Assembly: GCA_028281635.1 (NCBI GenBank)
Contig: JANQJM010000141.1
Location: forward strand, 1-64,000
Length of the DNA: 64,000 nucleotides
Reading direction: 5' to 3'
Origin: Pseudomonadales bacterium
GTDB lineage: Bacteria > Pseudomonadota > Gammaproteobacteria > Pseudomonadales > Pseudohongiellaceae
The notes under the pieces were generated by a model. That model made no database searches and was not told where the DNA came from. It worked only from the letters and a program-made list of their open reading frames with translations. The position numbers and the translations under genes are program-made. This document shows, in pieces, positions 4,948 to 50,171 of this stretch (the stretch's first letter is position 1; the number at the start of each line of letters is the position of its first letter).

Positions 4948-4961
4948 ATCAATGCCTGCGA

Positions 4962-5375
4962 TTATTGGTAGTTGGCTGTGGCGATGTTTACAGAGACTGC
5001 ACCGCCCAGCTTCGCTTCATCTATGACTCTTACCAGTAGGTCGGCGTTGACGGTGCGGTCGGCCTGAATCACGACAGGCAGATCATCCCTCGACAACAGC
5101 CGCTCGACAAGTGGTCTTACCCCTGCGGTCCCGATGTTGCGCCCGCCGTAAACAATCTGTCCGGTTGAGGTGATGGCGATGAGTATGCTCTGACTATCAA
5201 GTTCCTGTGCTGAAATCGCCTGTGGCTTGTTGACATCAACTCCAGTCTCCTGAACGAAGGTGGTCGTTACAATGAAAAAGATGAGCAGTATGAAAACAAC
5301 ATCGATCAGAGGAGAGATATTGATTTCACCGGTTGCAGCTTCATCGTCCTGAAACAATGATTTACGCATAGACAT
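4962..5375 (-). CDS. exbD: ExbD/TolR family biopolymer transport protein
   Basis: EINISPLIDVVFILLIFFIVTTTF, canonical ExbD N-terminus. Confidence 0.95.
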   Translation of the reverse strand: MSMRKSLFQDDEAATGEINISPLIDVVFILLIFFIVTTTFVQETGVDVNKPQAISAQELDSQSILIAITSTGQIVYGGRNIGTAGVRPLVERLLSRDDLPVVIQADRTVNADLLVRVIDEAKLGGAVSVNIATANYQ

Positions 5376-5879
5376 CTAGCCCTTTGCTTTGTCCAGTTTT
5401 AACAGCTCGTGCTCTATCTGCTTGATTCGCGAATCAACAAACATCAGCATGAACAAAGCTGGAATTGATATAACCAGGCCAGTTTCTGTAGTAATCATCG
5501 CTTCAGATATTCCGGCTGCCACCTGATCGAATACATCCCCTTCGCTTTGCGTTAATCCCCTGAACGTAGTCAGCATTCCCATTACCGTGCCCAGTAGTCC
5601 GAGTAACGGTGCGGTTGTGGTCAAAACCTGCAGTAGGCTCCTTCGCCCACGCAGGAATTGCAACTGGTCAGCTCTGAATTCATCGATACCCGCGAGTATA
5701 ATCTGCTCAGTAAGAGGTTCTTCCGCGGTTCCCGATACGCGGGGGAGCTTCAAGAGTGTATCTATGGCAATCCAATAGAGGAAAAACGCCAACCCAGCGA
5801 GCGCCAGCATCAAGCTGCCACCTGCCTGCACTACGGCGACTAGATCTTGAAGAAATTCACTCATGATTTCCTGCGTCAT
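5376..5879 (-). CDS. exbB: MotA/TolQ/ExbB proton channel family protein
   Basis: TTTAPLLGLLGTVMGMLTTFRGL...GISEAMITTETGLVISIPAL. Confidence 0.95.
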   Translation of the reverse strand: MTQEIMSEFLQDLVAVVQAGGSLMLALAGLAFFLYWIAIDTLLKLPRVSGTAEEPLTEQIILAGIDEFRADQLQFLRGRRSLLQVLTTTAPLLGLLGTVMGMLTTFRGLTQSEGDVFDQVAAGISEAMITTETGLVISIPALFMLMFVDSRIKQIEHELLKLDKAKG

Positions 5880-7266
5880 CAGGGACTGACAGACCGTTAG
5901 TGAAGATCAATGCGAATTTCTCCATGTCTCCGAGGATCGATTTAATGCGGCGACTTAATAGAGCGTGAATCAAAAGAGCCGGGATCGCCACTATAAGGCC
6001 AAATTCTGTCGTTATCAGGGCTTCTGAAATGCCGGATGAAAGCATTCGCGAATCCCCGGTGCCGAAGATTGCAATTAGATTGAATGTGTTGATCATGCCA
6101 GTGACCGTGCCCAGTAAACCCAACAGCGGTGCAACTGCAGCGGTCGTTGCTATGACCGGCAAGAGCCGATTTAAGATCGGTCTTGTTTCGAGGATGTTTT
6201 CGTACAAGATTTCTTCGAGCAGCTGCGGAGATTCGCTACTGTTGTTGACGCCGGCAACCAGCATCGGGCCGACTGGTGCTGGTAAATTCGCAGCCAGTTT
6301 GGCCGCTTGTTCCGGCTCCGATTGACGAAGTTTATTCAGCACTGCTCTGACCTGCTCAGTTGTAGGTAATGTGATGCGGAGTATTTGTGCTGCTTTGTAT
6401 ATGGAAATACTCAAGGCAAGAACTGCAAAGAACAAGATCGGGAGTATCCATATGCCGCCACGGCTGATCTGGCTGTACAGGCTATCGCGACTTTCCGAAA
6501 TTTGCGCCACTACCCCTTCTGAGACATCAGCTGACAGTTCGACAGGCATGCCATTAGTCAGTTGGGTTATTGGTTCAAGTTCGTCTCCAAGGTTGAGAAT
6601 TCGTGCGTATAAACCTTCTTCCGCTGACTCAATGCCTCCCAACTCCCGGTCGTCGCTTATGAAATAAACCAGTGGGCCGAATCGGGTAAAGGTACCTCCA
6701 CGAAGGCTGCCATCCTGAGTCGCGATATCGCCTTGATATTGGCTCCCGCCAAATGCAGATCGAACCCTGTCCATGCCAGCGTTTACGATGGAAAGCTGGG
6801 CATCGACAGCGGCCAGACCTGAGGGCGCATTCGATGATTCGCGATAGGCTTCGGTAACTTCCGAATGAGTAGCAATCTCTGAAATCCTGAGATTACTTTG
6901 AAACCGATTGGCATACTCATCAAGCAAGTTCAGTATGTAGAGGTTCTCACTCTCCCAGGCCTGGATACTTGCGGTCAGGTCGATGAGGCTCAATTCTCTG
7001 CTATCGCGAACCGATTGCAGACGAGCTGCTTCTCTCCTCAGTTCCCTGATTTCGCCCTCAGTCGAGTTCAATTCAGAAATCAGTGGAATTTTCTCTGTCG
7101 CAATTTCTTCTCTTACGGTTGCGAGCGTTAAGAGAGATTGTTCCAGGTCTGATTGCACAGATTGGCGAACTTCTTCAAGGGAAGTCGGTTGAGCGACTGT
7201 GTTCACCGAGACTTGCAAGACTATACCCCATGCAAGTATGCGGCTGATCGTGGCTGCAACTCTCAT
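5857..7266 (-). CDS. Long MotA/TolQ/ExbB family protein, TtpC-like (coiled-coil N-terminal extension)
   Basis: N-terminal signal and coiled-coil region, then LLPVIATTAAVAPLLGLLGTVTGMINTFNLI...ISEALITTEFGLIVAIPALL; overlaps exbB. Confidence 0.85.
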   Translation of the reverse strand: MRVAATISRILAWGIVLQVSVNTVAQPTSLEEVRQSVQSDLEQSLLTLATVREEIATEKIPLISELNSTEGEIRELRREAARLQSVRDSRELSLIDLTASIQAWESENLYILNLLDEYANRFQSNLRISEIATHSEVTEAYRESSNAPSGLAAVDAQLSIVNAGMDRVRSAFGGSQYQGDIATQDGSLRGGTFTRFGPLVYFISDDRELGGIESAEEGLYARILNLGDELEPITQLTNGMPVELSADVSEGVVAQISESRDSLYSQISRGGIWILPILFFAVLALSISIYKAAQILRITLPTTEQVRAVLNKLRQSEPEQAAKLAANLPAPVGPMLVAGVNNSSESPQLLEEILYENILETRPILNRLLPVIATTAAVAPLLGLLGTVTGMINTFNLIAIFGTGDSRMLSSGISEALITTEFGLIVAIPALLIHALLSRRIKSILGDMEKFALIFTNGLSVPDDAGNHE

Positions 7267-8111
7267 TGCCTCACCTGCATCGGGAGCTCAATTAGACGGG
7301 GAGAAATCCGGGATTCATAAACTTCTACCGCGATGAGTATCGCTGATGCCATATCATCTTCTCGTTGCCATTCCCACCCGAACTCGTCAGGTACTCCGAT
7401 CCCTGCAATAGTTCCACTTCCGTTTGCGTAGAATGCTCGCGACAATCCGAGATACAGCACTTGCACTTCTACTTCGCGACCGGGATCAACCTCAATGGCT
7501 TCAGTAGTCAGAACTATCGTGCTGTCAAAGGCTTCAATCTCCGACAGAATGCCGAGGACAGCTTGTACCCTTTCACTGAGAGACCTTGTACTGGTTTGGT
7601 TCTCACTTCCCAACAAACTGAACCGCGGGCTTAGCTCTCGTTGCAGAACCAGAGGAAGCCTGGGTTGCAAAACCAGCAGTTGACGTTCGTAATTGGATAC
7701 TTCGGATTGCAATGATGCCGAAATCTCCTGGTAGGCTGTAAGTTGCTCTACCAGAGCTGCTCTTTCTTCGTCGGCCCGACTGGCTGTTTGCTGTGCCTGC
7801 TCAATTTGCTCTTCCAGAATTCTGCGTTCAGTATCAAGAATGCTGAGCAAATCCTCGATGGAGGATTTCTCTTCTCTCCACTGTCGATTCTCCTGGGATA
7901 TAAGTTGCTCTAAACGTATCCACTCCTGTACTGCTTCTTTGGTTTCATCGAGTAGCTCTGCTGCGAAAGTCTGAGGAGAAACGGCAACCAGGAATAAGAG
8001 AAATATAGAATGAACAAATCTATTCCTGACACCTTTTGTGCTTGAGTTGTAAATCACGTAGTAGGGCACTCCAAACATTTGTCTAACGGTGTGCCGCAAG
8101 AACACCGGCAA
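7263..8111 (-). CDS. DUF3450-family protein of TonB2 cluster
   Basis: Secreted coiled-coil protein with YERQLLVLQPRLPLVLQ-type core; 4-bp overlap with TtpC-like gene; true start may be internal. Confidence 0.8.
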   Translation of the reverse strand: MPVFLRHTVRQMFGVPYYVIYNSSTKGVRNRFVHSIFLLFLVAVSPQTFAAELLDETKEAVQEWIRLEQLISQENRQWREEKSSIEDLLSILDTERRILEEQIEQAQQTASRADEERAALVEQLTAYQEISASLQSEVSNYERQLLVLQPRLPLVLQRELSPRFSLLGSENQTSTRSLSERVQAVLGILSEIEAFDSTIVLTTEAIEVDPGREVEVQVLYLGLSRAFYANGSGTIAGIGVPDEFGWEWQREDDMASAILIAVEVYESRISPRLIELPMQVRQ

Positions 8112-34853: not shown

Positions 34854-36371
34854 TCATTCAACCAGTTTGATCCACTCACCCGCTTCTGGCTGACCAGACG
34901 GGTAGTAGCCATTCAACAGTCGTAGAGTTTCTTCTGGATAGTTGGCAATCTTGCTCTGTTGGGCGACGACGGCGAAATCGAAATACTCGCTAGCCTGCAC
35001 GTAGCGAATCTTCATCTCGCTGCCCAACAAGGTTTCTCCGCGCTGAATGGCTCTAAAGGTTCTAATCGACTCCAGCAGCTGTTCGTCGATTTCATCGACA
35101 GCACTATTGTTGGTAATCTCGCCGCGGAATATAAATGCTCTTGGCCTAAGATAGATCACCGCCACGCGCTCTGTGTTACCGGTCTCACTGGAGACATGAG
35201 TGCCAGTATGACCAAGCAGCCGGTACTGAGAGAGTGCCTCAGATTTTTGCAGATTAGTGATACCCAGAACATCTCTAATAAAGACACGTGGCTCTATATT
35301 GTCATTCAATCGCCTTGCTTCTACTTGTAAGCTACCAATGCCTTCTGCTTCTCCGCTGACTGTTGTAAAAGTACTCTCAACATTCCAGTCATCCGGGAAG
35401 ACAATGGTATAGCCCAGATTGGTTTCGTAGAAACGATTGCGTTCATCTTGCGGTTGTGACGAAGCGCTTTCTCCAACAACCAGGCCATCGATATGTTCGC
35501 GGAACTTACTGTCGTCGGTAAGTGTTGCTTCTGATTCCTCCAGTGCGCCCACTGAGGCGATTGCCTGCTGTAGTCGGGTATCGTTACGCGGATGAGTGGC
35601 AAATAGTCCATGGTAACCACCACCACTACCTGTAGTAAGGCGATTAAAGTCTTCCTGGTTTTTCAACACAGTAACCACATCGATCACCGCGGATGGATCG
35701 TATCCAGCATTCAGCAAATACTCTGCACCGAGGCTATCCGCCTCTAACTCCATCTCTCTGCCAAAACCACTGAGACCAGTTTGGGCCCAAATAGAGGCGA
35801 CCTGACTGATTTGATTTCCTGCATAACCGCTGCCTGTCGCAACTGCAGTAACAAAGCCACCTACTTGAGCGGCAGTGCGTGCCAGAGCACCGCGGGCTTG
35901 TTGCTGTACAGCATGACGTGCGGTGATATGTCCTATCTCATGGGCGATTACCGCAGCCAATTCTGCTTCGGAATTCATAAAATTGAGCAGGCCACGGTTT
36001 ACATAGACGTAGCCCCCAGGGAGTGCCATCGCGTTTATGGCTGGACTATCAATGATAGTGAATGTGTATTCCAAATCCGGGCGGTGGCTGGCCGCAGCGA
36101 TTCGATTGCCAACCTCGGTAACGTAGGCCAGCAACTCTTCATCCTGCAAAATAGGTTGGCTGGCTAATACCTTCTCGTGTTCTTCCAGCCCAATTTCTTT
36201 TTCCCGATTTTCGCCCATCAAAACCAGATTGGGGCTGCCGGTTGCGGGGTTTACAGCACAAGAAGTAAGTGTGTTGAGAGCAATTAGTACAGCGACTAGC
36301 TGCAAGGAAAGTTTTAGTCGGATATTTGCAATGATTGCGTCGCCCAAGCTATTGAGACTCAAAACATGCAT
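34854..36371 (-). CDS. M48-family metalloprotease lipoprotein
   Basis: Lipobox LTSC; AVIAHEIGHITARHAVQQQ; LEADSLGAEYLLNAGYDP. Confidence 0.9.
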   Translation of the reverse strand: MHVLSLNSLGDAIIANIRLKLSLQLVAVLIALNTLTSCAVNPATGSPNLVLMGENREKEIGLEEHEKVLASQPILQDEELLAYVTEVGNRIAAASHRPDLEYTFTIIDSPAINAMALPGGYVYVNRGLLNFMNSEAELAAVIAHEIGHITARHAVQQQARGALARTAAQVGGFVTAVATGSGYAGNQISQVASIWAQTGLSGFGREMELEADSLGAEYLLNAGYDPSAVIDVVTVLKNQEDFNRLTTGSGGGYHGLFATHPRNDTRLQQAIASVGALEESEATLTDDSKFREHIDGLVVGESASSQPQDERNRFYETNLGYTIVFPDDWNVESTFTTVSGEAEGIGSLQVEARRLNDNIEPRVFIRDVLGITNLQKSEALSQYRLLGHTGTHVSSETGNTERVAVIYLRPRAFIFRGEITNNSAVDEIDEQLLESIRTFRAIQRGETLLGSEMKIRYVQASEYFDFAVVAQQSKIANYPEETLRLLNGYYPSGQPEAGEWIKLVE

Positions 36372-36407
36372 AGTGCCACCTGTCGGTCGAGTGGTAGCAG
36401 GTAATAA

Positions 36408-37085
36408 CTAGCTACCAATTACAAACTGTTTAAGCTGAGCAGCCAAGCGACTACAGGCATTGGCTTCAACTCGCGCAATGAGTGGAATGGGTACCACCAG
36501 GGCAGGCAGATAGGACTGGCCTGAGGCATCGGTGTTGATCGTTCCCACATTGGTCAGTGAACCGACATCCCAGACACGTGCATCAAAGTTTGCATCATCT
36601 TCCCAGGTGCCGAAGCCGAAACAACCGCCTCCACCTGGTCCAATAGTGCAAGAGATAGAACCTTGTCGGTCTGTGGTTTCAGTAAAACCATCCAACCAGA
36701 CGATATAACGAATGCCGAACTCACCCATTTTACGAGCGACGACATCTTCTGCCATGAGCTGCTCCAGGTCCCTGGTTCGCAGTGGTGCAGTACGCGGTTC
36801 AAACCAGGGGAACATGGCATCAATGAATTCTTGTTCGGGGACTACATTGATTGCGTTTTCACCGCGACTCATGCGGTTACCAACACATTCGACAAAATCG
36901 GCACGGGTTTCATAGTCGCTGGCCTGGCGACGCCCAAGAATCACCACTGATTCATCGCTTTCGATTCCTGTTTCGCCCTGACGGAATTCATCTACGGTGG
37001 TGCTAGTGCAGGCCGCAAGCAGGCCCAGTAGCATGACTGATACTAGTTTTATTCCTGTTGTTGTTTGCTCAGTAATCATAACCAC
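36408..37085 (-). CDS. Hypothetical lipoprotein
   Basis: LLGLLAACTST lipobox; no recognisable domain. Confidence 0.65.
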   Translation of the reverse strand: MVMITEQTTTGIKLVSVMLLGLLAACTSTTVDEFRQGETGIESDESVVILGRRQASDYETRADFVECVGNRMSRGENAINVVPEQEFIDAMFPWFEPRTAPLRTRDLEQLMAEDVVARKMGEFGIRYIVWLDGFTETTDRQGSISCTIGPGGGGCFGFGTWEDDANFDARVWDVGSLTNVGTINTDASGQSYLPALVVPIPLIARVEANACSRLAAQLKQFVIGS

Positions 37086-37105
37086 CCCCCTTGCCGTTCA
37101 ATGAA

Positions 37106-37744
37106 CTACAAGCTGGCTAACCAATCCCGAACTTCGGGGACTTGCGAGAAGGTCAGGGAAAAGCTGGAGGCCAAATCGCGCAGAGCAACCACAGCAGCTT
37201 CATTTATACCGGCTTCGGCAGAACGGAAAGTTTCGGTCGGCGTCTTGCCGTAGGAAGTCAGCACCCAATCCGCAATGTAATCTCCTTCTGGAGTGACCAG
37301 TCGCATGTTGTACTTAATCCAAACCTCGTACACATCGAGCTTGGTCTTGGCTGGCAAGGCCAACTGAAATTCTTCAATCAATGGCATAAACACCGCATCG
37401 ACTTGTCCTGCCTGTGCCTCTTCCATCTGATTCACTTCGACCACCTGATCGAACATGGCGGGTAAGACAGCATTGAACAGTTGCACGTGAGACTGGCCGC
37501 TTTCGATGTTGAATTCTTCACTGCCGGTTTCAGAGTATTCCATGTAGGCAAACTCTTTCAGGGCGTCGTCGTAATACACGGCAACCGTCAATGGAAGCTT
37601 GCTGATATTCGGCGTCGGAAAGCTGCCTTCGATAGTGACATTATTTACGCCACAACCCACTAGTGAGACCGCAAATAGCATGAGCACGCTGACCCCTGCG
37701 TGTTTGCTTACTTGACCCTTCATTATGCTCAGTATTTTGTTCAT
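37106..37744 (-). CDS. Hypothetical lipoprotein
   Basis: LMLFAVSLVGCGVNN lipobox; beta-rich secreted protein. Confidence 0.65.
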   Translation of the reverse strand: MNKILSIMKGQVSKHAGVSVLMLFAVSLVGCGVNNVTIEGSFPTPNISKLPLTVAVYYDDALKEFAYMEYSETGSEEFNIESGQSHVQLFNAVLPAMFDQVVEVNQMEEAQAGQVDAVFMPLIEEFQLALPAKTKLDVYEVWIKYNMRLVTPEGDYIADWVLTSYGKTPTETFRSAEAGINEAAVVALRDLASSFSLTFSQVPEVRDWLASL

Positions 37745-37801
37745 GATGATCGCTATCGAAAGTCTAGATAACCAATATTACGTCCAGGCTGCAGTTCTGG
37801 C

Positions 37802-38812
37802 TCATTGAAAATCATTTAGTCCAACAAATGTACCACCATTACGCTGCGTCATTTCTCGCATCATATTGGTGTAGCGATACGCGCTCTGTCGAAAGCGCGG
37901 TGGCCCGGCGAAAATAGTCGGAAAACCGATGCCATGAATGCGTACCAGCCGGTCGCCATTTGCATCTTCCACGTTGATGCGGTCTATCGTGTTTAGTACA
38001 TCCCGAATAGACCCGCCTGGCTGAAAATCGTCCCCCAGTACATAGATACTAATTTTCTTATCCGGGGAATAAAAGGTATTAATTGCGCGTGTCACACCTT
38101 CTACAGGGCTACTATTACTGTATGGCTGCCAAGTCCGCAAGGTAGAAATGATGTTACTGCGCCCCCGCGGGGTATCCGGCATCCATTCGCCCCGATAAGA
38201 GTTAAACATGTAGTCCCCCATGTCATTCATCACCTGAATACCCTTCACTTCCGGGTATACATCCAGGGTTTTATCGATGACATCCAGCATCTTGTCCCAG
38301 TTTCCAGGGGTGTTGTACATGCTGCCTGAGGTGTCGATCACGAAGATAATGTATTCGCTGTCTACCGGCACACCACCAATGGCGTTGTCCTCGGGCGCTG
38401 CCACATTGGCCAGTAAGCGCTGCATTTCTTCGGTAAGAGACTGACGGGCAATGGCCAGTCGCCCCACTTCATCGGTAATCTCCTCGGATAGCTGATTGGA
38501 GGCATTGAAACGGCCTTCCACATCATTGAGATCGCGGCGCAGGCGAGCGATACGCTCGGTCAGGGCAGACAGCTGCTCATGTTTGGCATTCAGCTCCCGA
38601 TTTAGTATTCGGGTTTCGCCCCGTATCGCAAACAGCTGCTCCTGTAACTCGGTGACCGAGGCCTCCGGAGTGACATCTGAGAATTCAATAGTGACCGGCG
38701 CCGACGATTTGGTAATCATAAGCAGAATGATCATGGCGCCAAACCCACAGGATGCCACGTCCAAAAAGGACACAGTAAAGGAATCTGTTTCTCGGCGATC
38801 TTTTTTGCTCAT
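37802..38812 (-). CDS. Membrane-anchored coiled-coil/VWA protein, MotB/ExbD-like N-terminus
   Basis: SFTVSFLDVASCGFGAMIILLMI TM; heptad region; MIDAS FVIDTSGSM. Confidence 0.8.
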   Translation of the reverse strand: MSKKDRRETDSFTVSFLDVASCGFGAMIILLMITKSSAPVTIEFSDVTPEASVTELQEQLFAIRGETRILNRELNAKHEQLSALTERIARLRRDLNDVEGRFNASNQLSEEITDEVGRLAIARQSLTEEMQRLLANVAAPEDNAIGGVPVDSEYIIFVIDTSGSMYNTPGNWDKMLDVIDKTLDVYPEVKGIQVMNDMGDYMFNSYRGEWMPDTPRGRSNIISTLRTWQPYSNSSPVEGVTRAINTFYSPDKKISIYVLGDDFQPGGSIRDVLNTIDRINVEDANGDRLVRIHGIGFPTIFAGPPRFRQSAYRYTNMMREMTQRNGGTFVGLNDFQ

Positions 38813-38845
38813 TGTTTACTCAGTTTGCCATTAATCCAGTGTGCT

Positions 38846-40072
38846 CTAAATATTAGTGGGGAAAGACACACCGAGATCTTCCGAAATCTCTTCAGTACTT
38901 TCTACGCGCGCCACCGACGTATCCTCTCTTGGTTGTTCCGGAGCGTTTTCCTCCACTGCCGAGGTGCCACCTGGCCAATCCTTGGAGGGGGCAATTAACG
39001 ATCCTCGCGTATATTGTGCCAGCTCCCAGAAGGCGGCGGCAGCGCTGGGATCACCTTCCAATGGCATTAATATTATATTGACCGGAATTCCCTGCAATAA
39101 CTCCCCGATTGCGTCTTCATACAGCTCCAGTCTATCCCGCGGTGTAATCAGAGGGTCGCGAGCTCCCCTATCGTCGATAGTAGGTAAGCCGTCAGTGATC
39201 AGGAAGATATTATCCGGAGGAGGGTTCATATTGGCTATCTCCCGAAACAGGCGCTCGTAGTTAGTGCCGCCCTCGGGTGCGATGTCCATGACCTGCTCTA
39301 CCACTTCGTTCAACTGGTCACGATCAGCCACTTCCAACCAACTGCCTTCACTCCCAGGCAAGGCTGCCCGAACTTCCTCGTTGAAAGCATAGATCTGGTA
39401 TTGACTGATAATGGGCAGCTGAGTAGTAATCCAGTCTACGATTTTGACAACACGTTGCCATTTTGGAGCTTCTTTCTTGTACACGTCAGCCCGCAGGCTG
39501 GTGCGGATGATGTTGACGATGGTGTCATCCAGCATGCTGGCAGAGGCATCCATGACGATCAGAATACGTTGGCCACCCAGATACAGGCCCGACAGATACT
39601 GCCGCTGGCCATCACCGATGAACTGCCGCACACTGGAACCTTCTTGTTCCAAAGCGCTGGCCTGCAGTCTCAGTAATTCTTCCTCTAGTTGCTGCACATC
39701 GGCCCGCAGCTGTTCCACGTCTTCTACGGTGGCGACACTGGAGTTTTCCATCGCCGCCAATTCTTGCAAAAACGTATCAATCTGGTCCTGAATCTGTCGC
39801 GCCAGGCCCTGTGCTGTCACCACATCGAAGTCCACGTCCGACAGTATGTTTCGTAGCTCCACCAAACCCAATTGCCCTTCCAGCACCTCTTCCTCCAACA
39901 AACTGATCTCTGCCGACAGGTCGGGGCTGGTTTCCACATCAGACAAGGTACTGGTGTGATCGAGAATCAGGAAGATCAAAATCACCGCCCCGAAACCGCA
40001 AAACATCACATCCAGAAATGACAGACTGATGGGATTGAATTTGCGCCTGAGGGCTCTGTGTTCGCTAGACAT
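38846..40072 (-). CDS. Membrane-anchored coiled-coil/VWA protein, MotB/ExbD-like N-terminus
   Basis: NPISLSFLDVMFCGFGAVILIFLIL TM; coiled coil; MIDAS IVMDASASM; FLITDGLPT. Confidence 0.82.
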   Translation of the reverse strand: MSSEHRALRRKFNPISLSFLDVMFCGFGAVILIFLILDHTSTLSDVETSPDLSAEISLLEEEVLEGQLGLVELRNILSDVDFDVVTAQGLARQIQDQIDTFLQELAAMENSSVATVEDVEQLRADVQQLEEELLRLQASALEQEGSSVRQFIGDGQRQYLSGLYLGGQRILIVMDASASMLDDTIVNIIRTSLRADVYKKEAPKWQRVVKIVDWITTQLPIISQYQIYAFNEEVRAALPGSEGSWLEVADRDQLNEVVEQVMDIAPEGGTNYERLFREIANMNPPPDNIFLITDGLPTIDDRGARDPLITPRDRLELYEDAIGELLQGIPVNIILMPLEGDPSAAAAFWELAQYTRGSLIAPSKDWPGGTSAVEENAPEQPREDTSVARVESTEEISEDLGVSFPTNI

Positions 40073-41408
40073 TTTGCACCTGGATCAAGGTAAGCACTTC
40101 GTTACTGCCTTCGAATTGAATGCGATCCCCTACCGAGAGTTTGCGCTCCCCCGAGGCCGTCACCCCATTCAATAAATAGGGCATGTCACCACAATCGAAA
40201 TAGACGCCGTCGCCACGATCGGCAATGACACCAAGGTTTTCCGGCAGATTGGCAATGGACAGGGTCAACACGCCTGGGGTGTTGCTATGCCCATTCAGCG
40301 TCTGTTGATTCTGAATACTTATCTGTTTTACCGATATTGCCTGATTGCCATGCAATACATGAGTCGGTTGCTCTGCCGATTGGCTAGCAGACTTCACGTT
40401 TGAGGAAATGTGTTGCGACACCGGCAAACTGTTTACCAGACTAATACCCTGTTCACCACCCGTTATCAATTCGCGGTACTCCAAACAGGCATCGTTGACT
40501 GCTCCCTCATCGATGACAATTAGGTCGAGTGAGGCAGGAAGGCTTGCTTTGAATCCCGGTAACTCTGCCAAGGCCGGACTGACAACTAACTGTGTGTCAT
40601 GATCCGTGGCCATCGCCGTGACTTGCTCATTAATCTTTTTGAAGTGACTGTTCAGGTTAGTAATCAAACTTTCCATCGGCATTTTGGCTGTATGTACTGT
40701 ATCACCAGCGTTCAATTCCAAAATCAGATTGCCGTCCTGTTGCGCCTGGGCCAACCACGCGGGTAACTGGTTATAAAGTTGCTGCTCAGACTCAGCATCG
40801 TGCTGCGGATTGAATCGGCATTGCTGAATGAACATTCCAGTAGCCAGCTGCATCATTAAGTCTGTAAAGTTCTGACTGCCGACACCTGGAATCTGTACAG
40901 TAGAGCCCGAGCTTAACTGTGAACCATCGGTTGTAAGCTTGGTGACTACTACCTGATGCAGTTGCAGGTCAGCGTACAAAACATTGCTTGCGCGAGCGGA
41001 GACTATAGCTGCGGCTACCGCTGAATCGACAACTCCACTTACCTTAAATGGGCTGTGTTGAGAGAGGCCCAGCAGAATAGACAGTTGCTGCCGTGTGAAG
41101 CTGCCCGGCACGGCAATGACCACGTCCGATGCAATATCCGCTTCCTCGGCCAGGTGCTGCAGATGAGCAAAAGCGATGTCGGCATGATGACGGAAATTAT
41201 TGCCATGTTCGATGGGATCGAGATTCAGTTCATGCCAGTACTTGTTGTAGCTGTTGGTTGGTTGCAGACGTGCTTGTTGTTCAGCAAGTTCACCGAGCAC
41301 AAGGTCTTGACCATCGGCTAAGGCAAAACCTGGACTGCGCAACAGCAGCCCGGACTCATCGCCCACGCTGATTGCTTTGTCGTTAAGCTCAATGACTTTC
41401 AAGCTCAT
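40065..41408 (-). CDS. Hsp70/actin-like (ASKHA-fold) protein with C-terminal FHA-like segment
   Basis: DVVIAVPGSFTRQQLSILLGLSQHSPFKVSGVVDSAVAAA resembles the DnaK VITVPAYF...EPTAAA region; C-terminal LLNGVTASGERKLSVGDRIQFEGSNEVLTLIQV. Confidence 0.6.
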   Translation of the reverse strand: MSLKVIELNDKAISVGDESGLLLRSPGFALADGQDLVLGELAEQQARLQPTNSYNKYWHELNLDPIEHGNNFRHHADIAFAHLQHLAEEADIASDVVIAVPGSFTRQQLSILLGLSQHSPFKVSGVVDSAVAAAIVSARASNVLYADLQLHQVVVTKLTTDGSQLSSGSTVQIPGVGSQNFTDLMMQLATGMFIQQCRFNPQHDAESEQQLYNQLPAWLAQAQQDGNLILELNAGDTVHTAKMPMESLITNLNSHFKKINEQVTAMATDHDTQLVVSPALAELPGFKASLPASLDLIVIDEGAVNDACLEYRELITGGEQGISLVNSLPVSQHISSNVKSASQSAEQPTHVLHGNQAISVKQISIQNQQTLNGHSNTPGVLTLSIANLPENLGVIADRGDGVYFDCGDMPYLLNGVTASGERKLSVGDRIQFEGSNEVLTLIQVQNV

Positions 41409-41412
41409 GCAG

Positions 41413-42246
41413 TTACGCCTGTGTTACACCATGAATGTCTGACTCAGAATCGGGGACCTGCAGATGTCGAATAAGTCGTTCGTCGCAATAGTTCTGACAG
41501 TCGAGAACCAGACGATCTTGAAGCTGCTGTAACTGGTGCAGCAGGAACATCAAAAAAATGCTGACTACCAGGGCGACAAAGGTCGAGTTAAAGGCCACAC
41601 CCAAACTCACCGTTACACCAACGATATCACCACTAACTGCCTGATAGGCCTGGCCCAGGGCGGTGCCAATGCCGCGCACGGTGCCAAGGAATCCAATGGA
41701 AGGGATAGCCCAGGCAATGTAGCGCACCAGGGACAGTTCGGTTTCCATGCGATCAGCTTCAGTTTCGCAGGTATCCTTTACGGTGGCTGAAACATCCTGG
41801 ATATTACGTGTGCTTTGAAAGCGATGGAGACCAGCCATAATTGCCCGGGACAATAGAAAGTCTTGTTCACGTTCAGGTAGGGCTTGTACCGGCCGTGCAT
41901 AATTCCGTGCATCTTCAGGCAGGATGCTCATGCCTTGATTCACTTGGATAAGAGTGCGATCCAACAAGGAGCGTTGTCTCAAAGTCTGTTGCGCCTTCAT
42001 TCCAATAATGAACAGCGCCCAGAACATCAGAATTATGCAGGTCTCTTGTTCGAAGTCTCGGAGAATGACAAACACCGAACGCTCAGGCACAAAGTTTTCA
42101 TCGGTTTGCTGCAACAGGGTTTGCTGTTCCTGAATAAGATCAGCATTGGGTCTGATCACTGTGACATAGGTTGCATGCACGATGATGACGCAGAAAATCA
42201 ATGCAACCAGTTGAAAAAACGTTTCGTACAGCGAGCCTTGCTTCAT
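41413..42246 (-). CDS. MotA/TolQ/ExbB proton channel family protein
   Basis: YIAWAIPSIGFLGTVRGIGTALGQAY...VTVSLGVAFNSTFVALVVSIFLMFLL. Confidence 0.9.
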   Translation of the reverse strand: MKQGSLYETFFQLVALIFCVIIVHATYVTVIRPNADLIQEQQTLLQQTDENFVPERSVFVILRDFEQETCIILMFWALFIIGMKAQQTLRQRSLLDRTLIQVNQGMSILPEDARNYARPVQALPEREQDFLLSRAIMAGLHRFQSTRNIQDVSATVKDTCETEADRMETELSLVRYIAWAIPSIGFLGTVRGIGTALGQAYQAVSGDIVGVTVSLGVAFNSTFVALVVSIFLMFLLHQLQQLQDRLVLDCQNYCDERLIRHLQVPDSESDIHGVTQA

Positions 42247-42288
42247 TACTTACTTCCTAAGGGTCTTTCCTGTTTCAATAATCGTGAA

Positions 42289-44358
42289 TTACTCAAGGTA
42301 ACGTGTAATGCGAAATCCCACATCGTCTCGAGGTTCAGCGCCAAAGTCTCTGAATGACAAACGCATCTCAGTGATGGCACCGTGGGCCCAACTGGACCCT
42401 CTAATTGTGTGAAACTGACCTAACTCCGGCCCTAAGGGATCGATCTCCACACCCAGACTGCCAGCAGAGCCATAATAGTCGTGAACCCATTCCGATACAT
42501 TTCCGGCGAGGTCATACAGTTCATAGTGGTTCGGTTCAAAGCTTGCCACCGGTGCCGTGGCGAAATGACCATCGTTATAATCAAACATAACCTCCCCAAG
42601 GTAAGCCTGGGCAGTGACATCGCCGAAATTACCTGCATTCTCCGGTGGTGGAAGTTGATCTCCCCATGGGTATTTGAGCATGCTTCCACTACCGTCGGTG
42701 CGAGCTGTCCAGGCCCACTCCGCCTCGCTGGGCAAGCGATAACCAGTGGCTTCTGGATTAAATCCCACCACCTCTTCGCCCTCGACGCGGTAGAACAGTG
42801 GCAGCCCTTCCTGTTCACTGAGCCAGTTGCAGTAGAGCGCTGCCTGGTTCCAATTAATGCGAACTACGGGCTGATTTTCGTTGTTGAGGGTCAGCCCCTG
42901 AATTGTGCCGGAGCTGTGTTCAGCATCGAACAAGCGATACTCAGCGTTGGTGACCTCGCGATAGCTCATGTAGAACGGTCGGTCCAGTTGAATGTCGCGC
43001 AGGGATTCATTAGGCCGACGACCGGCTTCCCGTCGCGAAGCTCCCATGGTGAAAGCCCCTGGATAAAACAGTTTAAGTTGCTGCCCCGCGACCGTCGTAA
43101 TCACCGGCTGAATCTGTTCCAGTCGCGCCTGCTCCAGTGACTTTAGATTCACACGAATGATCTGATCCAATCCGGGACGGGAAGTGAACTCGGCGCTATA
43201 GGGAACGAAGCCTTCTTTGCGTACCTCAATCTGTTGGCTGACCGCCATCAGCTCCAGTGTCTGATTGGCTAGTCCCCGAAACTCACCATTGATATAAAGC
43301 TCTGCGTCAGCGGGTTCACTAATCACTTGTACGCTGGCAGTGACCGGTGCCAATTCAACCAATACAGAAGTCTCTTCATTGGGTGCGGTCCGCACGGAGC
43401 TCTTGGTGGACTGAAACCCGTTCTTGAAAAAAGTAAGTTCATGGTTTTGATTAGGAGCAAGTGCAACCTCCAATGGGGTGAGGCCCTGAAACTCTCCGCC
43501 GATAGTGACGCTGGCTTCAGTCGGGCTGCTCTGGATAAATACCAGCCCGTCTGCCGGCTCTAACTCCACTGGCGGCACGACTAAGTCTTCACCAGCAATG
43601 ACGTCGAACTCTTCTTGCCAGGCTTTATGCCCGGCAAGCTTCAGGGTCACATCACGTTCACCCTGCAGGATTTCCACATTAAAAGGTGTGACGCCAACCG
43701 TTTCTCCATCCACGATGATGTCCGCACCGGGAGGAGCAGTAGTAAAGGAAAGTGTTGCCCAGGCTGGTTCCAATGTGGCTTCAAAACTTTGCTGCACAGA
43801 ACGGCCTTCGATCTCGATCACAGCGCCATAATCCAGATAACGCTCGTTGCTGATCGTCAGCTGATGCTCTCCAGGCTCTACCAGGACATCAACCAACGGA
43901 GTCTCTCCGATGTCGACACCATCTATCTGCACACGCGCCCCTTCCATCTCCAAGGTGGCTACGCTGACAAGTCCGGGTAATCTGCGCATGGTAAAGGGGT
44001 GAGTCTGCGCTGCCTCAGTATCCACCAGAAGCTGGGTCACCGTGTCGTGATAACCCTCGTTTTGCAACGTTATCTCGTAGGAGCCGGTGCGAATCAAATA
44101 GCGTTGGCCGAGGCGGAAGTTAAGACCGCCATCAATTTGAATACTGGCGGTTATGGGATCGACTTCGACAAAGACTGATCTGGCAGTCAGAACAAACCAC
44201 CCTGACACTGACGATACCAGGACGAACACGGCGACAACCGCATGGAACCAGTGAAATTTATAAGTGAATTTACTCTCGCTAACTTCATGCGGAGTAAAGT
44301 CTATGGGTATTATGGGGTCAAGTGCCCCATTATCTTGGGCGTTGTCGTCTGTGTTTGC
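42289..44358 (-). CDS. PEGA-repeat protein with C-terminal FGE-sulfatase (SUMF1) fold
   Basis: N-terminal TM; about five PEGA-like repeats (PADAELYINGEFRGL); FGE motifs FTMGASRREAGRRPNE, EVTNAEYRLF, YRLPSEAEWAWTAR, YDLAGNVSEWVHD, VGFRI; start set at Met 44358. Confidence 0.88.
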   Translation of the reverse strand, partial: ANTDDNAQDNGALDPIIPIDFTPHEVSESKFTYKFHWFHAVVAVFVLVSSVSGWFVLTARSVFVEVDPITASIQIDGGLNFRLGQRYLIRTGSYEITLQNEGYHDTVTQLLVDTEAAQTHPFTMRRLPGLVSVATLEMEGARVQIDGVDIGETPLVDVLVEPGEHQLTISNERYLDYGAVIEIEGRSVQQSFEATLEPAWATLSFTTAPPGADIIVDGETVGVTPFNVEILQGERDVTLKLAGHKAWQEEFDVIAGEDLVVPPVELEPADGLVFIQSSPTEASVTIGGEFQGLTPLEVALAPNQNHELTFFKNGFQSTKSSVRTAPNEETSVLVELAPVTASVQVISEPADAELYINGEFRGLANQTLELMAVSQQIEVRKEGFVPYSAEFTSRPGLDQIIRVNLKSLEQARLEQIQPVITTVAGQQLKLFYPGAFTMGASRREAGRRPNESLRDIQLDRPFYMSYREVTNAEYRLFDAEHSSGTIQGLTLNNENQPVVRINWNQAALYCNWLSEQEGLPLFYRVEGEEVVGFNPEATGYRLPSEAEWAWTARTDGSGSMLKYPWGDQLPPPENAGNFGDVTAQAYLGEVMFDYNDGHFATAPVASFEPNHYELYDLAGNVSEWVHDYYGSAGSLGVEIDPLGPELGQFHTIRGSSWAHGAITEMRLSFRDFGAEPRDDVGFRITRYLE

Positions 44359-44365
44359 CATGTCA

Positions 44366-45907
44366 TCATCGCCCACTAGTGGCAACTACTCGTTCGACAC
44401 ATCGAACAACAACAGATTCAGGTGTCTGCCCAAAGCCTACAATGAATTCTTCACGTACATCGCGATAACCGATGCGCTTACCAACTGCCACGTAGCGACC
44501 AGGCTTAAGCGATAAAGTTTGTTGTTCAAACAACCCCAGGTTGCCAATGCGCAGCACCGTCACATCGGTAAGATTGTCGGAAACTAGTTGAACCTCGATG
44601 GGGTTTTGCGAATTCAACAGCAGCTGCTCTAACTCATCGAGTTGTGATTCTAATCGAGGGCCGGGATTTGGAATGTCTCTCGCAGTAAAGTAATAGCCCC
44701 GCGTTTGCTGAAACACCTCATCTTCTGCAAAGCGTTCTGGATTATTGATGGCGTTGACCAGGAAAGCGTCGAGGTTAGCTCTTTGATTGGCATAACCCCG
44801 GCCTTCGGTAGCAAAGCTGAGATTAGAATCGATGGCGATTACCCCATCGTATGCTGCTACTGCATCAGCCCAGCGTTCTGATTGCTCCGCCGCATCTATC
44901 TGTCGCCGTAGTTCATTGATCTGGGCATTGGCGACTTCGGTCTCAGTTTGCACAATCGCTGCCTGTGCCTCAGCCTGATTAATGCCCAGGTTCGCGGCCC
45001 GTTGGAATGTAGCGATGGCTTGTTCCGGATCGTCAGCTTCCAGGAAGGCATAGCCCTCAGACATGATGCGGGAGAATTCGTTTTCAATTAGCTGCGCATC
45101 GACAGCTGCGATCTTATCTGGTGCAATCTCATTGTAGCTATCCAGCTCGATAATCCGCCGATACAAGTCTCTGGCAGCTTCAAGCTCTCCATCCTCAAAC
45201 AGATCATCTGCTTCAACCATCAAGGCTGCTACTTCATCGAGGGCCTGCGCTCGCTCCAGACCAATCTGCGCCGCTTCATTGTTAGCGTCCAGCACCAACG
45301 CTAAGGAGAATGATTCCTGAGCAGATTCGGAGTCGGCTGCATCCAACTGATTCTGTCCGTCGATCAATATACGTTGCAGCACTTCATCGGTAGTGGATAA
45401 CAACTCAGCCAGGGCATCGCGTCCGCGTGCATAGGATTCGGTGGCAAGTAAAAAATCCTGTGTACGATAATACTCATCACCAATGGAGGCTTCCTCCAGC
45501 GCGGCATTATAAGACTCCTGACCCCATTCACTCACTTCCAGGGCATCCAATTCGGTTTGCCTTTCCAGCAATTCTGCCAACACATCTTGTGCTTCTTTGC
45601 GCTGAATAGAGCGCTGAGCTTCTTCAAAGGGTGAGATAGCAAGTTCAGGCTCAGCTACTGAGCTTGTGAGTGGAGCACTGACAGTGTCATCGCGTCGCTC
45701 CAAAGGCAACTCGTACTCGGTGACCACCGAAGGCAAGACAAATATCACCAGTAAGGCCACAATGGCGAGACCACCAAGGCCCAGCCACATTACGGGTGAA
45801 GGTTTATCCGATTTGGGAGGCGCGATCTGCTGTGCGATGCGTTCCGCTTCCGCGTCTGCATTGTCCAGCGTCGTCTGCTTTGTATTTTCCAGTTCGTTTT
45901 CTGACAT
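44366..45907 (-). CDS. Membrane-anchored TPR protein
   Basis: Single TM near N-terminus (MWLGLGGLAIVALLVIFVLPSVV); TPR-like repeats; PEGA-like tail. Confidence 0.75.
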   Translation of the reverse strand: MSENELENTKQTTLDNADAEAERIAQQIAPPKSDKPSPVMWLGLGGLAIVALLVIFVLPSVVTEYELPLERRDDTVSAPLTSSVAEPELAISPFEEAQRSIQRKEAQDVLAELLERQTELDALEVSEWGQESYNAALEEASIGDEYYRTQDFLLATESYARGRDALAELLSTTDEVLQRILIDGQNQLDAADSESAQESFSLALVLDANNEAAQIGLERAQALDEVAALMVEADDLFEDGELEAARDLYRRIIELDSYNEIAPDKIAAVDAQLIENEFSRIMSEGYAFLEADDPEQAIATFQRAANLGINQAEAQAAIVQTETEVANAQINELRRQIDAAEQSERWADAVAAYDGVIAIDSNLSFATEGRGYANQRANLDAFLVNAINNPERFAEDEVFQQTRGYYFTARDIPNPGPRLESQLDELEQLLLNSQNPIEVQLVSDNLTDVTVLRIGNLGLFEQQTLSLKPGRYVAVGKRIGYRDVREEFIVGFGQTPESVVVRCVERVVATSGR

Positions 45908-45976
45908 ATCCAGTTCTGCCGGTAGTGGTTAACACTAACCGAGCGCGGGGCCTCTGTAGTTCCTTACAACAGTGTC

Positions 45977-47161
45977 TTACAACTGACCTAGTTCCGCGGC
46001 ATAGAGATCTGCCAGAATTTCTCGCCACTGTTCGTACTGCTCTTCAACCGAACCGGAGAGAGTGATGGTGCGATCATCTAATGTGATCACTTGCGGCGCG
46101 ACAGCATTTTCCAGAGATTGGCCAAGCTCTTCCAAGGCCTCCATGTGCATGCGCGCTTCTGCCTGGCGATCGAATCCGCTCTTGATCAGATAGGCGCCAG
46201 CACCAACGCCAACGGCACCACTCGCTTGGGTACCGTAGTTGCCACCTTGAGTTGCTGCAGCCAGACCACCGATTACGGCAGCTGTACCCGCAATGAATCG
46301 ACGTCTTGCCGAGTCGCGCAAGTCACGCAACTCAATGGTTGCCTGATAGCTCTGCTCTCGCCAAGAATCGTAAGGCAATCGCATTTGTCTCACGTAGGTG
46401 GCGTAGTAATCCTGCACCGTATCAATAAACATGAAGTCGCGTTCACGAATGTCCTGAATGCGATTCAACAAAGGATCGTTTTCTGCAGGTAAGGAAACCA
46501 GCTGATAATTGCCATCGTCGTTTTGCGTGAGATAGTTTGAGAAAGCTTCCTCCGAAAAACGCTGCGCAAACAACATTTCGGAAACTGTTCTGATCTCTCG
46601 AATTTCATCGGAGTCTATATTGCGTTGACGATAGGCGAGAAGATCATTGGCGATCTTGTTGTAGATAACCTGAAACGGATCGCTCTTCTGCCGTTGCTGA
46701 GGGTCATAGCTGAACTGGCTGATGACTTCTTCATATTCCTTGGTGAACCATTGTTGGCCGCGTGAGTCAGTCACTTCGATGCGGACGACCATGGCTTCAC
46801 CATTGGATTCCAAAATCGTGCCCTCGACTCTCACATCCATCGGACTGGTGTCGTTGGGCATCAGGCGCACAATTCCCCAGTTGGCAGAACGCTGCAGTGT
46901 CTCTGCCAGCAGATAAGGTGCGTAACGAGATTCGGCGACGCGAATCTGGCCGTTGGTTACTTCCTCCTGGTCATCGGACAACTCATCCAAGCCAGGATCA
47001 AAAATTGTGACGCCAACATCCAGCAACAATTCTTCCGGTACGTTCTGGCTATCCTGTACCACCGGCGTGTAGGACGTTGACTTAACAGTGTGGGTGGCGC
47101 ATGCAGTCGTAAACAAGGCCACGAAAAGAATTCCCAAGGTCTGCTTTAGAGGCAACTTCAT
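45977..47161 (-). CDS. Hypothetical lipoprotein with glycine-zipper-like hydrophobic segment
   Basis: Lipobox LFTTACATH; FIAGTAAVIGGLAAATQGGNYGTQASGAVGVGAGAYLIKSG. Confidence 0.7.
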   Translation of the reverse strand: MKLPLKQTLGILFVALFTTACATHTVKSTSYTPVVQDSQNVPEELLLDVGVTIFDPGLDELSDDQEEVTNGQIRVAESRYAPYLLAETLQRSANWGIVRLMPNDTSPMDVRVEGTILESNGEAMVVRIEVTDSRGQQWFTKEYEEVISQFSYDPQQRQKSDPFQVIYNKIANDLLAYRQRNIDSDEIREIRTVSEMLFAQRFSEEAFSNYLTQNDDGNYQLVSLPAENDPLLNRIQDIRERDFMFIDTVQDYYATYVRQMRLPYDSWREQSYQATIELRDLRDSARRRFIAGTAAVIGGLAAATQGGNYGTQASGAVGVGAGAYLIKSGFDRQAEARMHMEALEELGQSLENAVAPQVITLDDRTITLSGSVEEQYEQWREILADLYAAELGQL

Positions 47162-48363
47162 TGCTGTTCACCAATACCTGTATAGACTCTATATTGTTCC
47201 CAAAGTGCTTCACGCAACTCTGGATCCGGTTCTGTCATCGCTGCTTCGCGAATCTGTCTTGCTACGACGTCGTCGTCACGCCCGCTCGGAATATCATCAG
47301 GGGGCGGAAAGGTCTCCACATTCTGCTGACTGGAAGATGCAGAAGGTTGACTAACCGCGGCGGCCACACCAGCGGTGGCAGCTGAGGTTGCTTGCTCCAT
47401 TGTTTGCGGCTGATTTTGTGCGCCACCGGCACCGCCGCCACCACCGTCTCCACCCGGGGAGACACTGCCTGCGGCATTACTTTCATTTTGCGCCCGTTCG
47501 CGTTCACTGAGAATGAAACCGTCGAAAGTTTCATAGCCTCTGCGCAAGCGTTCATCGAGAACCGCCGCCCGTTCTGACGCCGTGGTGGCTCCGCCTCCAG
47601 CTGCACCAGCAGGAAGCTGCGAGCCTGCCCCAGAACCCGTGGTACTGTCACGCTGTGCGCCCCCCGATCCGGCTGTGTTTTGCTGTTCAGACCCACCAGG
47701 CAAGGCATTTGGGAGCGTATCAAGCCCATAATCCCCACTTGGAGAGCCTAAACCGCCGCTGGAAGAGCCTTGCCCCCCACTTTGACCATTATTGAGGTCT
47801 CCTGTGGAACTATCGCGTCCGTTCTGGCCGCCGCCACCCTGATCGCCTGGGAATCGTGACTGACTGCCTGCATTCTGCCCAGGTTCCTGACCCTGAGATT
47901 GAGTGGATGACTGACCACCGCCCTGCTGTTGACCCTGTTGCTGATCGCCAGGAGAAGCACTATCTCGACTGTCCTGACCACCGGGTTGTTGCCCTGATTG
48001 TGACGCAGAGGTCTGCGACGCAGCATCTCCTTGCTGCTGACTCTGACTGGGAAAGTTCGCTGTTGGAATCGATCCAGCCGCACCAGAGCTGGCTGATTGA
48101 CTACCCTGAGATGCAGAACTGGCGCCGGAGCTACTGCTTTGGCTAGTGGATTGGCTACTGGACTGCTGGCTAGGTTGCTGGGGAGTACCTTGCTGTGAAC
48201 GGCTGCTGCTACTCGGGCTGGAAGGCGTGCTCGGGCTGGAAGAACTGGAACTGCTGGGAGAGGATGGCATAGGCACACTTGCACTGGAGCTGCTCTGTGA
48301 CGATGCACATGCCACCAGAGCCAAGCTGATTCCACCTAGAACTACCAATCTCAATAGCTGCAT
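47158..48363 (-). CDS. Ser/Gln/Gly-rich low-complexity lipoprotein
   Basis: Lipobox LALVACASS; more than 200 residues of S/Q/G/P-rich sequence; ordered C-terminus RDDDVVARQIREAAMTEPDPELREALWEQYRVYTGI. Confidence 0.75.
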   Translation of the reverse strand: MQLLRLVVLGGISLALVACASSQSSSSASVPMPSSPSSSSSSSPSTPSSPSSSSRSQQGTPQQPSQQSSSQSTSQSSSSGASSASQGSQSASSGAAGSIPTANFPSQSQQQGDAASQTSASQSGQQPGGQDSRDSASPGDQQQGQQQGGGQSSTQSQGQEPGQNAGSQSRFPGDQGGGGQNGRDSSTGDLNNGQSGGQGSSSGGLGSPSGDYGLDTLPNALPGGSEQQNTAGSGGAQRDSTTGSGAGSQLPAGAAGGGATTASERAAVLDERLRRGYETFDGFILSERERAQNESNAAGSVSPGGDGGGGGAGGAQNQPQTMEQATSAATAGVAAAVSQPSASSSQQNVETFPPPDDIPSGRDDDVVARQIREAAMTEPDPELREALWEQYRVYTGIGEQQ

Positions 48364-48620: not shown

Positions 48621-50027
48621 TTAGTACCAAAACCGGACTCTGGCCCGATTGTCATCAGATGGTAATGCAACACCATCCTGTACTATTGGTCGAAACGAAA
48701 ATCGTCTCATTTCTCTGACCACTCTTGCCACCTGACCGGAATTCTCATCAGTCTCTTCACTGAGAACTGTGACTCGCCTCACTTCTCCATTACGTGTCAC
48801 ATTAAAACTAAGATCTACAAATCCTTCCGTTAGTTCGCCAAGCGCCGGGCGGTCGGCGCCACCACGGAACACCGACCGTGGCTCGGTACTGAATGTGGGA
48901 ATGGGGGTTACCTGCCCGAACAAGCGCACCAGCATCTCCTCACCGTTCTCCTCGGCGGCCAATAAATTCCAGGCGCGCAGATACTGTTCTTCAGCGACAC
49001 GACGCTGCTGGAACAGCAGATACCAATCACCGAGATTGGCATAGGCTTCCGCGATTTGGTAAGGATCGTCTGATAACTCCTCGTGAACTGTCACGACTTG
49101 TTGCAGCGCGGCTTGACCCGCACTGAATCCTGCCGGTCTCATCGTCGAGCGCTGATTGAGTCGGGCAGCCAGTATGTCCTGGCTGCTTCGAAAGTCCGGT
49201 CGGTCAATCTCAGACATCAGGTCCGGGTTGCTTGCCACCAAATAGGCTGAATCGGCAATGTTGCGCAAATAGGAAACGAAACGCTCGTCCTGTTGCCCAA
49301 AATGTAAGCCCACCATCCTCACGGCCGCATCGAATAAGATCTGGGCATTACTAAGATGCAGGCCAAGCATCTCGCCAAAGCCGATGTTGAACGCTTGCAA
49401 ATGCCATTGTCCTAATTGCGCCAGTACCGGGATCATACGAGGATCTTCAGAGCCGTAGGCTTTTTGCTGAATATAGAAAAGATAGTTGTAGTACAGGTCC
49501 GCGTTGTCCCAATCCTCCATGGCCATGTAACTCTCGATGAGTTCTTCCACAATGGGAATCTGTTCGGTGGTATGCAGCCCATAGTTAATACGATCCACAT
49601 GCATTGCTCGGTCAAAAGTTGCTACTGCCGTTGCGTGATCGCCTTGCTGCTGCAACAAACTTCCCTGCGCCGTAAGTTGCTCGATGAGTTGGGGATCCCA
49701 GACTCCGCCAGCGTCTTCGATTGCCTGCAGAGTGACTTCGTATTCACTAATGCTCCGCGCTGTTAACTCGTCAGGCGCCTGTGCTTGCTGTTGAGTAGTT
49801 TCCAGCTCAGGTAAGACAGGGTCCGTTCCCGCTTCAAAGACAAAAGGGATTCCCACATAGACCACGCTGTCTCCAGATCGCGCTGGAACTTCTGCCTCCG
49901 CTGCGACCTCGTCAGTGGCTTCTGCTGTATCTGCATCTTCCTGTGCGAAAATGACAGGGGTGAACGCAAGGCCGGTCAGCAGTGCGAATAGGAGTGCAGA
50001 ATTTCTCAAAGGAATACCGATTTGCAT
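48621..50027 (-). CDS. Secreted TPR-region protein with C-terminal TonB-C-like domain
   Basis: Signal peptide from Met 50027 (MQIGIPLRNSALLFALLTGLAFTPVIFA); C-terminal GFVDLSFNVTRNGEVRRVTVLSE...FSFRPIVQDGVALPSDDNRARVRFWY. Confidence 0.75.
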   Translation of the reverse strand: MQIGIPLRNSALLFALLTGLAFTPVIFAQEDADTAEATDEVAAEAEVPARSGDSVVYVGIPFVFEAGTDPVLPELETTQQQAQAPDELTARSISEYEVTLQAIEDAGGVWDPQLIEQLTAQGSLLQQQGDHATAVATFDRAMHVDRINYGLHTTEQIPIVEELIESYMAMEDWDNADLYYNYLFYIQQKAYGSEDPRMIPVLAQLGQWHLQAFNIGFGEMLGLHLSNAQILFDAAVRMVGLHFGQQDERFVSYLRNIADSAYLVASNPDLMSEIDRPDFRSSQDILAARLNQRSTMRPAGFSAGQAALQQVVTVHEELSDDPYQIAEAYANLGDWYLLFQQRRVAEEQYLRAWNLLAAEENGEEMLVRLFGQVTPIPTFSTEPRSVFRGGADRPALGELTEGFVDLSFNVTRNGEVRRVTVLSEETDENSGQVARVVREMRRFSFRPIVQDGVALPSDDNRARVRFWY

Positions 50028-50171
50028 AAAACGTATGATGAAACGAAGACTCACTGACCTTATCGAGTTTCTATAATACTGCAGTGTGAGTAGAACTGTA
50101 CGCTCCGTGGGCGGGACAAGACCAGCGCTCAGTTCAGCGCCCACTAGAGTCAGATGAGAACTTGTTAGCGC

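Follow-up and report, generated by a model that had tools for sequence, protein, structure and literature searches.

What kind of machine is encoded by a dense minus-strand gene cluster in which a MotA/ExbB-type channel stands among VWA proteins, an Hsp70-like protein and several lipoproteins? The cluster lies at positions 34854-48363 of a 64,000-nucleotide stretch (the window; contig C9 in our numbering, JANQJM010000141.1 of assembly GCA_028281635.1) from a Pseudohongiella-like gammaproteobacterium, whose assembly comprises 4.24 Mb in 257 contigs and is 86% complete. Ion-driven motors of the 5:2 type power flagella, the Ton and Tol systems, gliding and Zorya. We suggest that the locus probably encodes another machine of this type, driven by the proton-motive force and spanning the envelope, in which a pair of VWA proteins would form the axle and act on a train of periplasmic and outer-membrane proteins. 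It would thereby provide a conserved gene list for a further ion-driven motor, one that is core to a marine genus. The first-pass annotation of the window had read the cluster as a proton-driven envelope machine; it missed the VWA proteins as the probable axle, a TolB-like lipoprotein and a kinase/FHA link, all described below.

A colinear locus with a MotA/ExbB-type channel

The eleven open reading frames (ORFs) that had been listed as one tightly packed set are all present and colinear, running on the minus strand from 48363 to 34854; we lettered them A to K in the order of transcription, and all coordinates below are on that strand. Their junctions range from a 20-bp overlap to a 69-bp gap. 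A and B overlap by 4 bp and F and G by 8 bp, E and F are separated by 4 bp, and C and D overlap by 20 bp with a TTG start or leave a 4-bp gap with the next ATG; the remaining gaps are 20-69 bp. The list itself needed amending at both ends: a twelfth gene, t (48621-50144), which adjoins A and is found in 49 of 51 related loci, had been missed, and K is optional (37 of 51). A gap of 257 bp separates t from A, so t is possibly a transcript of its own. A scan for promoters and terminators gave no useful information, since it returned fewer sites than shuffled sequences did. The domains originally assigned held up, with MotA_ExbB, PEGA-FGE, M48 and, weakly, TPR and VWA found by profile, and the Hsp70-like protein by an AlphaFold fold match.

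Gene E (41413-42246) encodes the channel subunit. Its product scores 57 bits against Pfam MotA_ExbB (cut-off 22.9; E-value 2.2e-15) and aligns with the ExbB/TolQ proteins of the same genome (hhalign E-value 8.8e-7). In that alignment two threonines of E fall on transmembrane threonines of ExbB/TolQ: Thr189, in a GTVRGIG motif (codon 41680-41682), and Thr222, the second transmembrane threonine of the ExbB/TolQ/MotA family (codon 41581-41583). Both are identical in 21/21 sequences, the alignment depth on which invariance was judged for E, G and H alike. With a domain above the cut-off and both transmembrane threonines in place, E belongs on sequence grounds to the MotA/TolQ/ExbB channel superfamily. 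Profile searches with PF02472 and MotB_plug found no ExbD, TolR or MotB gene within the locus; the genome has six genes for ExbD and a single one with a MotB-plug match, all of them outside the locus and the last on another contig.

The VWA proteins as candidate axle subunits

Which proteins, then, would supply the missing B subunit of the motor? Most likely they are G (38846-40072) and H (37802-38812). Each begins with a basic tail followed by a single transmembrane helix that bears the motif FLDxxxCGFGA with an invariant aspartate, and continues through a coiled coil into a periplasmic VWA domain with an invariant DxSxS motif, the Pfam VWA matches being weak. A single transmembrane helix with a conserved aspartate is the hallmark of B subunits in 5:2 motors, and Asp21 of G (FLDVMFCGFGA; codon 40010-40012) and Asp18 of H (FLDVASCGFGA; codon 38759-38761), each identical in 21/21 sequences, are candidate proton carriers. 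In G the residues of the metal-ion-dependent adhesion site (MIDAS), DxSxS at 175/177/179 and D294, are also invariant.

The helix motif holds in larger sets. It was found in 116 of 121 G orthologues, the other five being masked solely by a late predicted start, and in 111 of 115 H orthologues; in three of the four exceptions the motif lies downstream of a mis-called start, and one was not resolved. Position-specific scoring matrices (PSSMs) for ExbD and the MotB plug were built from relatives in the same order. With the MotB-plug PSSM just 0.35% (G) and 0.30% (H) of other ORFs score higher, and aspartate is placed on aspartate in 108/111 G and 101/101 H sequences (209/212 in total). The SHLS motif is absent from both proteins. 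Searches of the PDB with G and H profiles returned no VWA relative and mostly coiled-coil matches.

G and H align as paralogues from end to end (hhalign E-value 1.7e-27 over 312 columns), and of the 132 loci that have a channel gene 115 have both; for these reasons a mixed G/H dimer is likely. The window copy of G carries about 40 extra C-terminal residues (38846-38970) past the conserved ...DWP end, shared by 0/20 aligned orthologues.

Conservation and distribution

Is the set conserved beyond this genome? The first-pass annotation had proposed neighbourhood conservation of the channel and the two VWA genes as a check on its claim, and the outcome was favourable: linkage is kept in 51 full-length loci (each at least 20 kb) and in a second class, well outside this genome. 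Among the 51 loci E and G are present in all, H, F, C, I and J in 50, B, D and t in 49, A in 48 and K in 37, while the flanking genes dn2 and up1 recur in 19 and 14. Gene order is constant, with I and J inverted and on the other side of the locus in some lineages. In the second class a core of A-B-C-D-E-G-H is retained in the same order and F, I, J, K and t are absent. Linkage is thus far beyond chance and kept across many families and two classes. Apart from the set itself, no cargo or effector gene was found to recur in the neighbourhood.

Within the genus, E relatives occur in 34 of 37 genomes and in 20/20 of those at least 90% complete; the three genomes that have none are 72-85% complete. 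Sampling across the class gave 37 of 369 genomes (E-value 1e-15), and sampling across the phylum gave 16 of 399, of which 13 belong to one family of another class. Plasmids carry essentially no locus, with one distant partial match. A scan of named genomes confirmed at least 585 loci, and the best 80 of these include Microbulbifer, Parahaliea, Marinibactrum, Exilibacterium and Haliea. The presence of the locus in culturable Microbulbifer, Parahaliea and Marinibactrum makes the function of a VWA motor testable. As an isolated case, locus L088 (genome G269) holds an E relative of 46% identity with no G, H or other locus gene within 20 kb.

Periplasmic and outer-membrane proteins

On what could such a motor act? 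The remaining genes encode mostly envelope proteins. A (47158-48363) is a Ser/Gly/Gln-rich disordered lipoprotein (lipobox LVAC) matching no Pfam or NCBIfam family. B (45977-47161) is a lipoprotein whose AlphaFold model (predicted local distance difference test score, pLDDT, 78) has TolB as its best PDB fold match (4r40 and 1c5k; E-values 7e-4 to 7e-3, probability 1.00). The predicted TolB-like N-terminal domain is followed by a long hairpin of helices whose tip is rich in Gly and Ala, and the model contains no beta-propeller. A lone second copy of B (E-value 3.8e-95) lies elsewhere in the genome, at L276:9791-10951 (G000:C143), away from the other locus genes.

Neither C nor D is a lipoprotein; both are transmembrane proteins. 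C (44366-45907) has an N-terminal cytoplasmic tail, a single membrane pass (residues 44-62) and a TPR region on the periplasmic side (TPR_2, 3.9e-5). D (42289-44385) is membrane-anchored and combines five PEGA repeats (9e-49) with an FGE-sulfatase domain (3.8e-39). In this domain Cys519 is the sole conserved cysteine among 113 orthologues, so the domain probably serves for binding and not for catalysis; the catalytic cysteine pair of FGE/SUMF1 is absent from its expected position. Inspection by eye had also suggested that the C-terminus of C folds like PEGA and that long D orthologues have an FHA-like N-terminus; neither gave a Pfam match.

Gene t encodes a periplasmic TPR protein with a TonB C-terminal-like domain. 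It has a signal peptide, a likely ATG start at 50027 and a TPR_12 match (1.3e-10); TonB_C scores 6.4e-7 in the L183 orthologue and weakly (0.021) at the C-terminus of the window copy. The locus closes with lipoproteins I (37106-37744; lipobox LVGC) and J (36408-37085; lipobox LAAC), the latter without a family in profile searches, and with the optional M48 metalloprotease lipoprotein K (34854-36371; Peptidase_M48, 1.2e-37).

An Hsp70-fold protein and a kinase/FHA link

The cytoplasmic protein F (40065-41408) raises the further question of how the motor might be controlled. The window copy matches no Pfam family. Its AlphaFold model (pLDDT 89) predicts an Hsp70 nucleotide-binding domain followed by a C-terminal beta domain, and Foldseek matched it to Ssz1, Hsc70 and BiP (E-values about 1e-15). 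The Hsp70 phosphate-binding motifs DLGT and GGGT are replaced by ELND and DLQLHQ (placed by eye), so F is probably not an ATPase. The C-terminal domain is of FHA type by profile against the PDB (E-values 0.005-0.06); Pfam recovers FHA in 3 of 18 orthologues and did not find it in the window copy.

C orthologues in three loci (L079, L086 and L087) carry an N-terminal Ser/Thr kinase domain (Pfam, 4e-29 to 5e-41). That of L079 is fully canonical (VALK, HRDIKASN, GDFG) and those of L086 and L087 are partly changed. A decayed kinase domain was found in six more loci, bringing intact and decayed domains to 9 of 108 C orthologues. FHA was confirmed by Pfam in L079 and L087, and L086 retains an FHA motif. 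These kinase-C fusions, together with an intact FHA domain on F, suggest that the machine was phospho-regulated in some lineages, which would be a rare case of a phosphorylation-controlled 5:2 motor. Judged from the window copies, the kinase has disappeared from this lineage and the FHA domain has degenerated.

In five distant loci (L095, L096, L267, L268 and L269) an E-like channel lies beside FHA-like, PP2C-like, trypsin-like and Ser/Thr kinase genes in varying combinations; L096 also has an Asp-bearing VWA gene with a SALDLFASALGAF helix (VWA_2, 9e-6). It is possible that these loci represent a sister system with explicit phospho-signalling.

Comparison with known systems and alternative explanations

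Does the locus belong to a system already named? It had been put forward as one not recognised among the named systems, and this stands for the wider gene set, since literature searches for the gene combination returned nothing beyond PMC12204202 (Mol Biol Evol 2025). It does not stand for the motor core. That study (Fig. 4c-d) predicts a TPH-vWA/TolQ-like motor core of unknown function, with heterologous TPH-vWA pairs adjoining a tolQ-like gene, no tolR or exbD, a TolQ-like pentamer and, in AlphaFold 3 models, a pore-helix aspartate inside a threonine ring. Judged by that description, in which the published example is a cluster of Idiomarina loihiensis, our locus has in common with the family the tolQ-like gene, the VWA pair, the lack of tolR/exbD, the pore-helix aspartate, the ring threonines and the absence of SHLS. 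The main text makes no mention of PEGA, sulfatase/FGE, kinase or Hsp70, and describes no TolB-like lipoprotein, PEGA-FGE protein, Hsp70-fold-FHA protein, kinase or TonB-C/TPR gene of the kind found here. Because the core was already predicted there, the novelty here appears to lie in the wider conserved set with its core of seven genes, in the lipoprotein that resembles TolB, in the probably inactive FGE and Hsp70-fold domains and in the link between kinase and FHA. Neither the complete set nor its signalling parts seem to have been described.

The evidence speaks strongly for the original claim of a machine separate from Ton, Tol-Pal, Mot and Zorya, and the ExbD and MotB genes of the genome lie outside the locus. 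By the features that define Ton, Zorya, the flagellar stator, Tol-Pal and GldKLMN, the locus falls outside each of them. It resembles Tol-Pal in its ExbB/TolQ-type ring, its outer-membrane lipoproteins and the TolB-like N-domain fold of B; it differs in that its axle domains are VWA and that B is a lipoprotein with a hairpin in place of a propeller, and no TolR, TolA, propeller TolB or Pal was found by Pfam or NCBIfam among the proteins scanned. With MotAB, ExbBD and ZorAB it shares the channel family, and the G/H helix resembles the MotB plug, but it has VWA rather than an OmpA-like peptidoglycan domain, no ExbD and no Zorya partners.

Could the locus instead encode an export or surface-motility machine like GldKLMN (type IX secretion and gliding) or Agl-Glt, moving or exporting outer-membrane cargo? 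GldKLMN/PorKLMN likewise pairs a proton-driven motor with an FGE-domain protein, and the nearest curated family of D is GldK/PorK (4e-32). The score, however, is 112 bits against a cut-off of 350, D is PEGA-rich and anchored by a transmembrane helix, and no match to GldL, GldM or GldN was found in the locus. The AglRQS motor of Myxococcus gliding has one A-type and two aspartate-bearing B-type subunits (PMC9389320), a parallel to E, G and H, and the many lipoproteins and TPR proteins would fit such a task; AglQ/S differ in having TolR-like periplasmic domains where the B subunits of the locus carry VWA, and no cargo gene recurs among the neighbours. We consider this explanation unlikely, yet one to be taken seriously. 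In another reading, which we hold to be improbable, the VWA proteins would sit at the rim of the ring as transducers like TolA or TonB, and a TolR or ExbD from elsewhere in the genome would serve as axle. The six ExbD genes could supply one, and PMC12204202 proposes such working for another VWA family; but no ExbD is encoded in the locus, and the lack of SHLS in G and H together with their invariant aspartate disfavours this arrangement.

Two further explanations carry little weight. That separate complexes merely share one operon would account for F, I, J, K and t being missing or moved in some lineages, but A-B-C-D-E-G-H is colinear across two classes, which makes this highly improbable. Zorya-type anti-phage defence, in which the membrane motor would sense or signal infection, is the least probable of all. 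E does match ZorA weakly (PADLOC, E-value 0.0024), and VWA, Hsp70 and FGE-like domains are also known from conflict systems (PMC7159879). However, none of the ten proteins scanned matched ZorB, ZorC, ZorD or ZorE, no nuclease or effector gene is present and plasmids are essentially devoid of the locus. Its occurrence in every near-complete genome of the genus, in fixed order, is the pattern typical of core genes rather than of defence islands, whose distribution is patchy, and this core status with the absence of Zorya partners makes defence unlikely.

A proposed mechanism

We therefore return to the VWA-axle motor. Four points weigh against it: E has no sequence relative in the PDB at an E-value of 0.01; the homology of the G/H helix to MotB is drawn from a short profile match; an ExbD-type helix in G and H had to be rejected, as 16-21% of other ORFs beat their medians with the ExbD PSSM; and the alignment of B with TolB is limited to the N-terminal domain of about 150 residues.

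In the mechanism that we envisage, E would form the inner-membrane ring, at a predicted 5:2 ratio to an axle made of one G and one H, whose N-terminal helices would sit in the ring with their aspartates facing Thr189 and Thr222. Predicted proton flow would turn or stroke this axle, and the coiled coils would carry the force to the two periplasmic VWA domains. These, with their conserved MIDAS serines and aspartates, may act cyclically on periplasmic partners, pushing or pulling them. Candidate partners are C, through its TPR region, and D, whose PEGA and FGE domains are probably associated with peptidoglycan; at the outer membrane they would be the lipoproteins A and B, the latter through its TolB-like domain, with t, I and J as accessory proteins. 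F would remain in the cytoplasm, its ATPase activity probably lost, displaying its FHA-type domain; in lineages with a kinase-bearing C, kinase and FHA together would switch the motor. The task would most likely be a constitutive one at the envelope, for example to couple, tether or assemble structures of the outer membrane or the cell wall.

More tentatively, the locus may define a separate class of machine, a proposal about which we are nearly evenly divided. Here an obligate heterodimeric VWA axle would grip the TolB-like lipoprotein and the PEGA-FGE/TPR anchors via metal sites, and its gating would once have depended on a built-in relay made up of a Ser/Thr kinase, an FHA domain and a pseudo-Hsp70; in the Pseudohongiella-like lineage this relay would have decayed.

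Other motor-related genes

Two observations concern motor genes outside the locus. One is a protein at L270:2-565, next to a distant relative of the channel, with a FVDMLISMIGALIFILG helix reminiscent of the plug motif. The other lies within the window, where positions 4288-8111 hold a cluster of ExbB, ExbB2 and ExbD genes, possibly accompanied by a tonB-like gene; unlike the A-K locus, it encodes a true ExbD.

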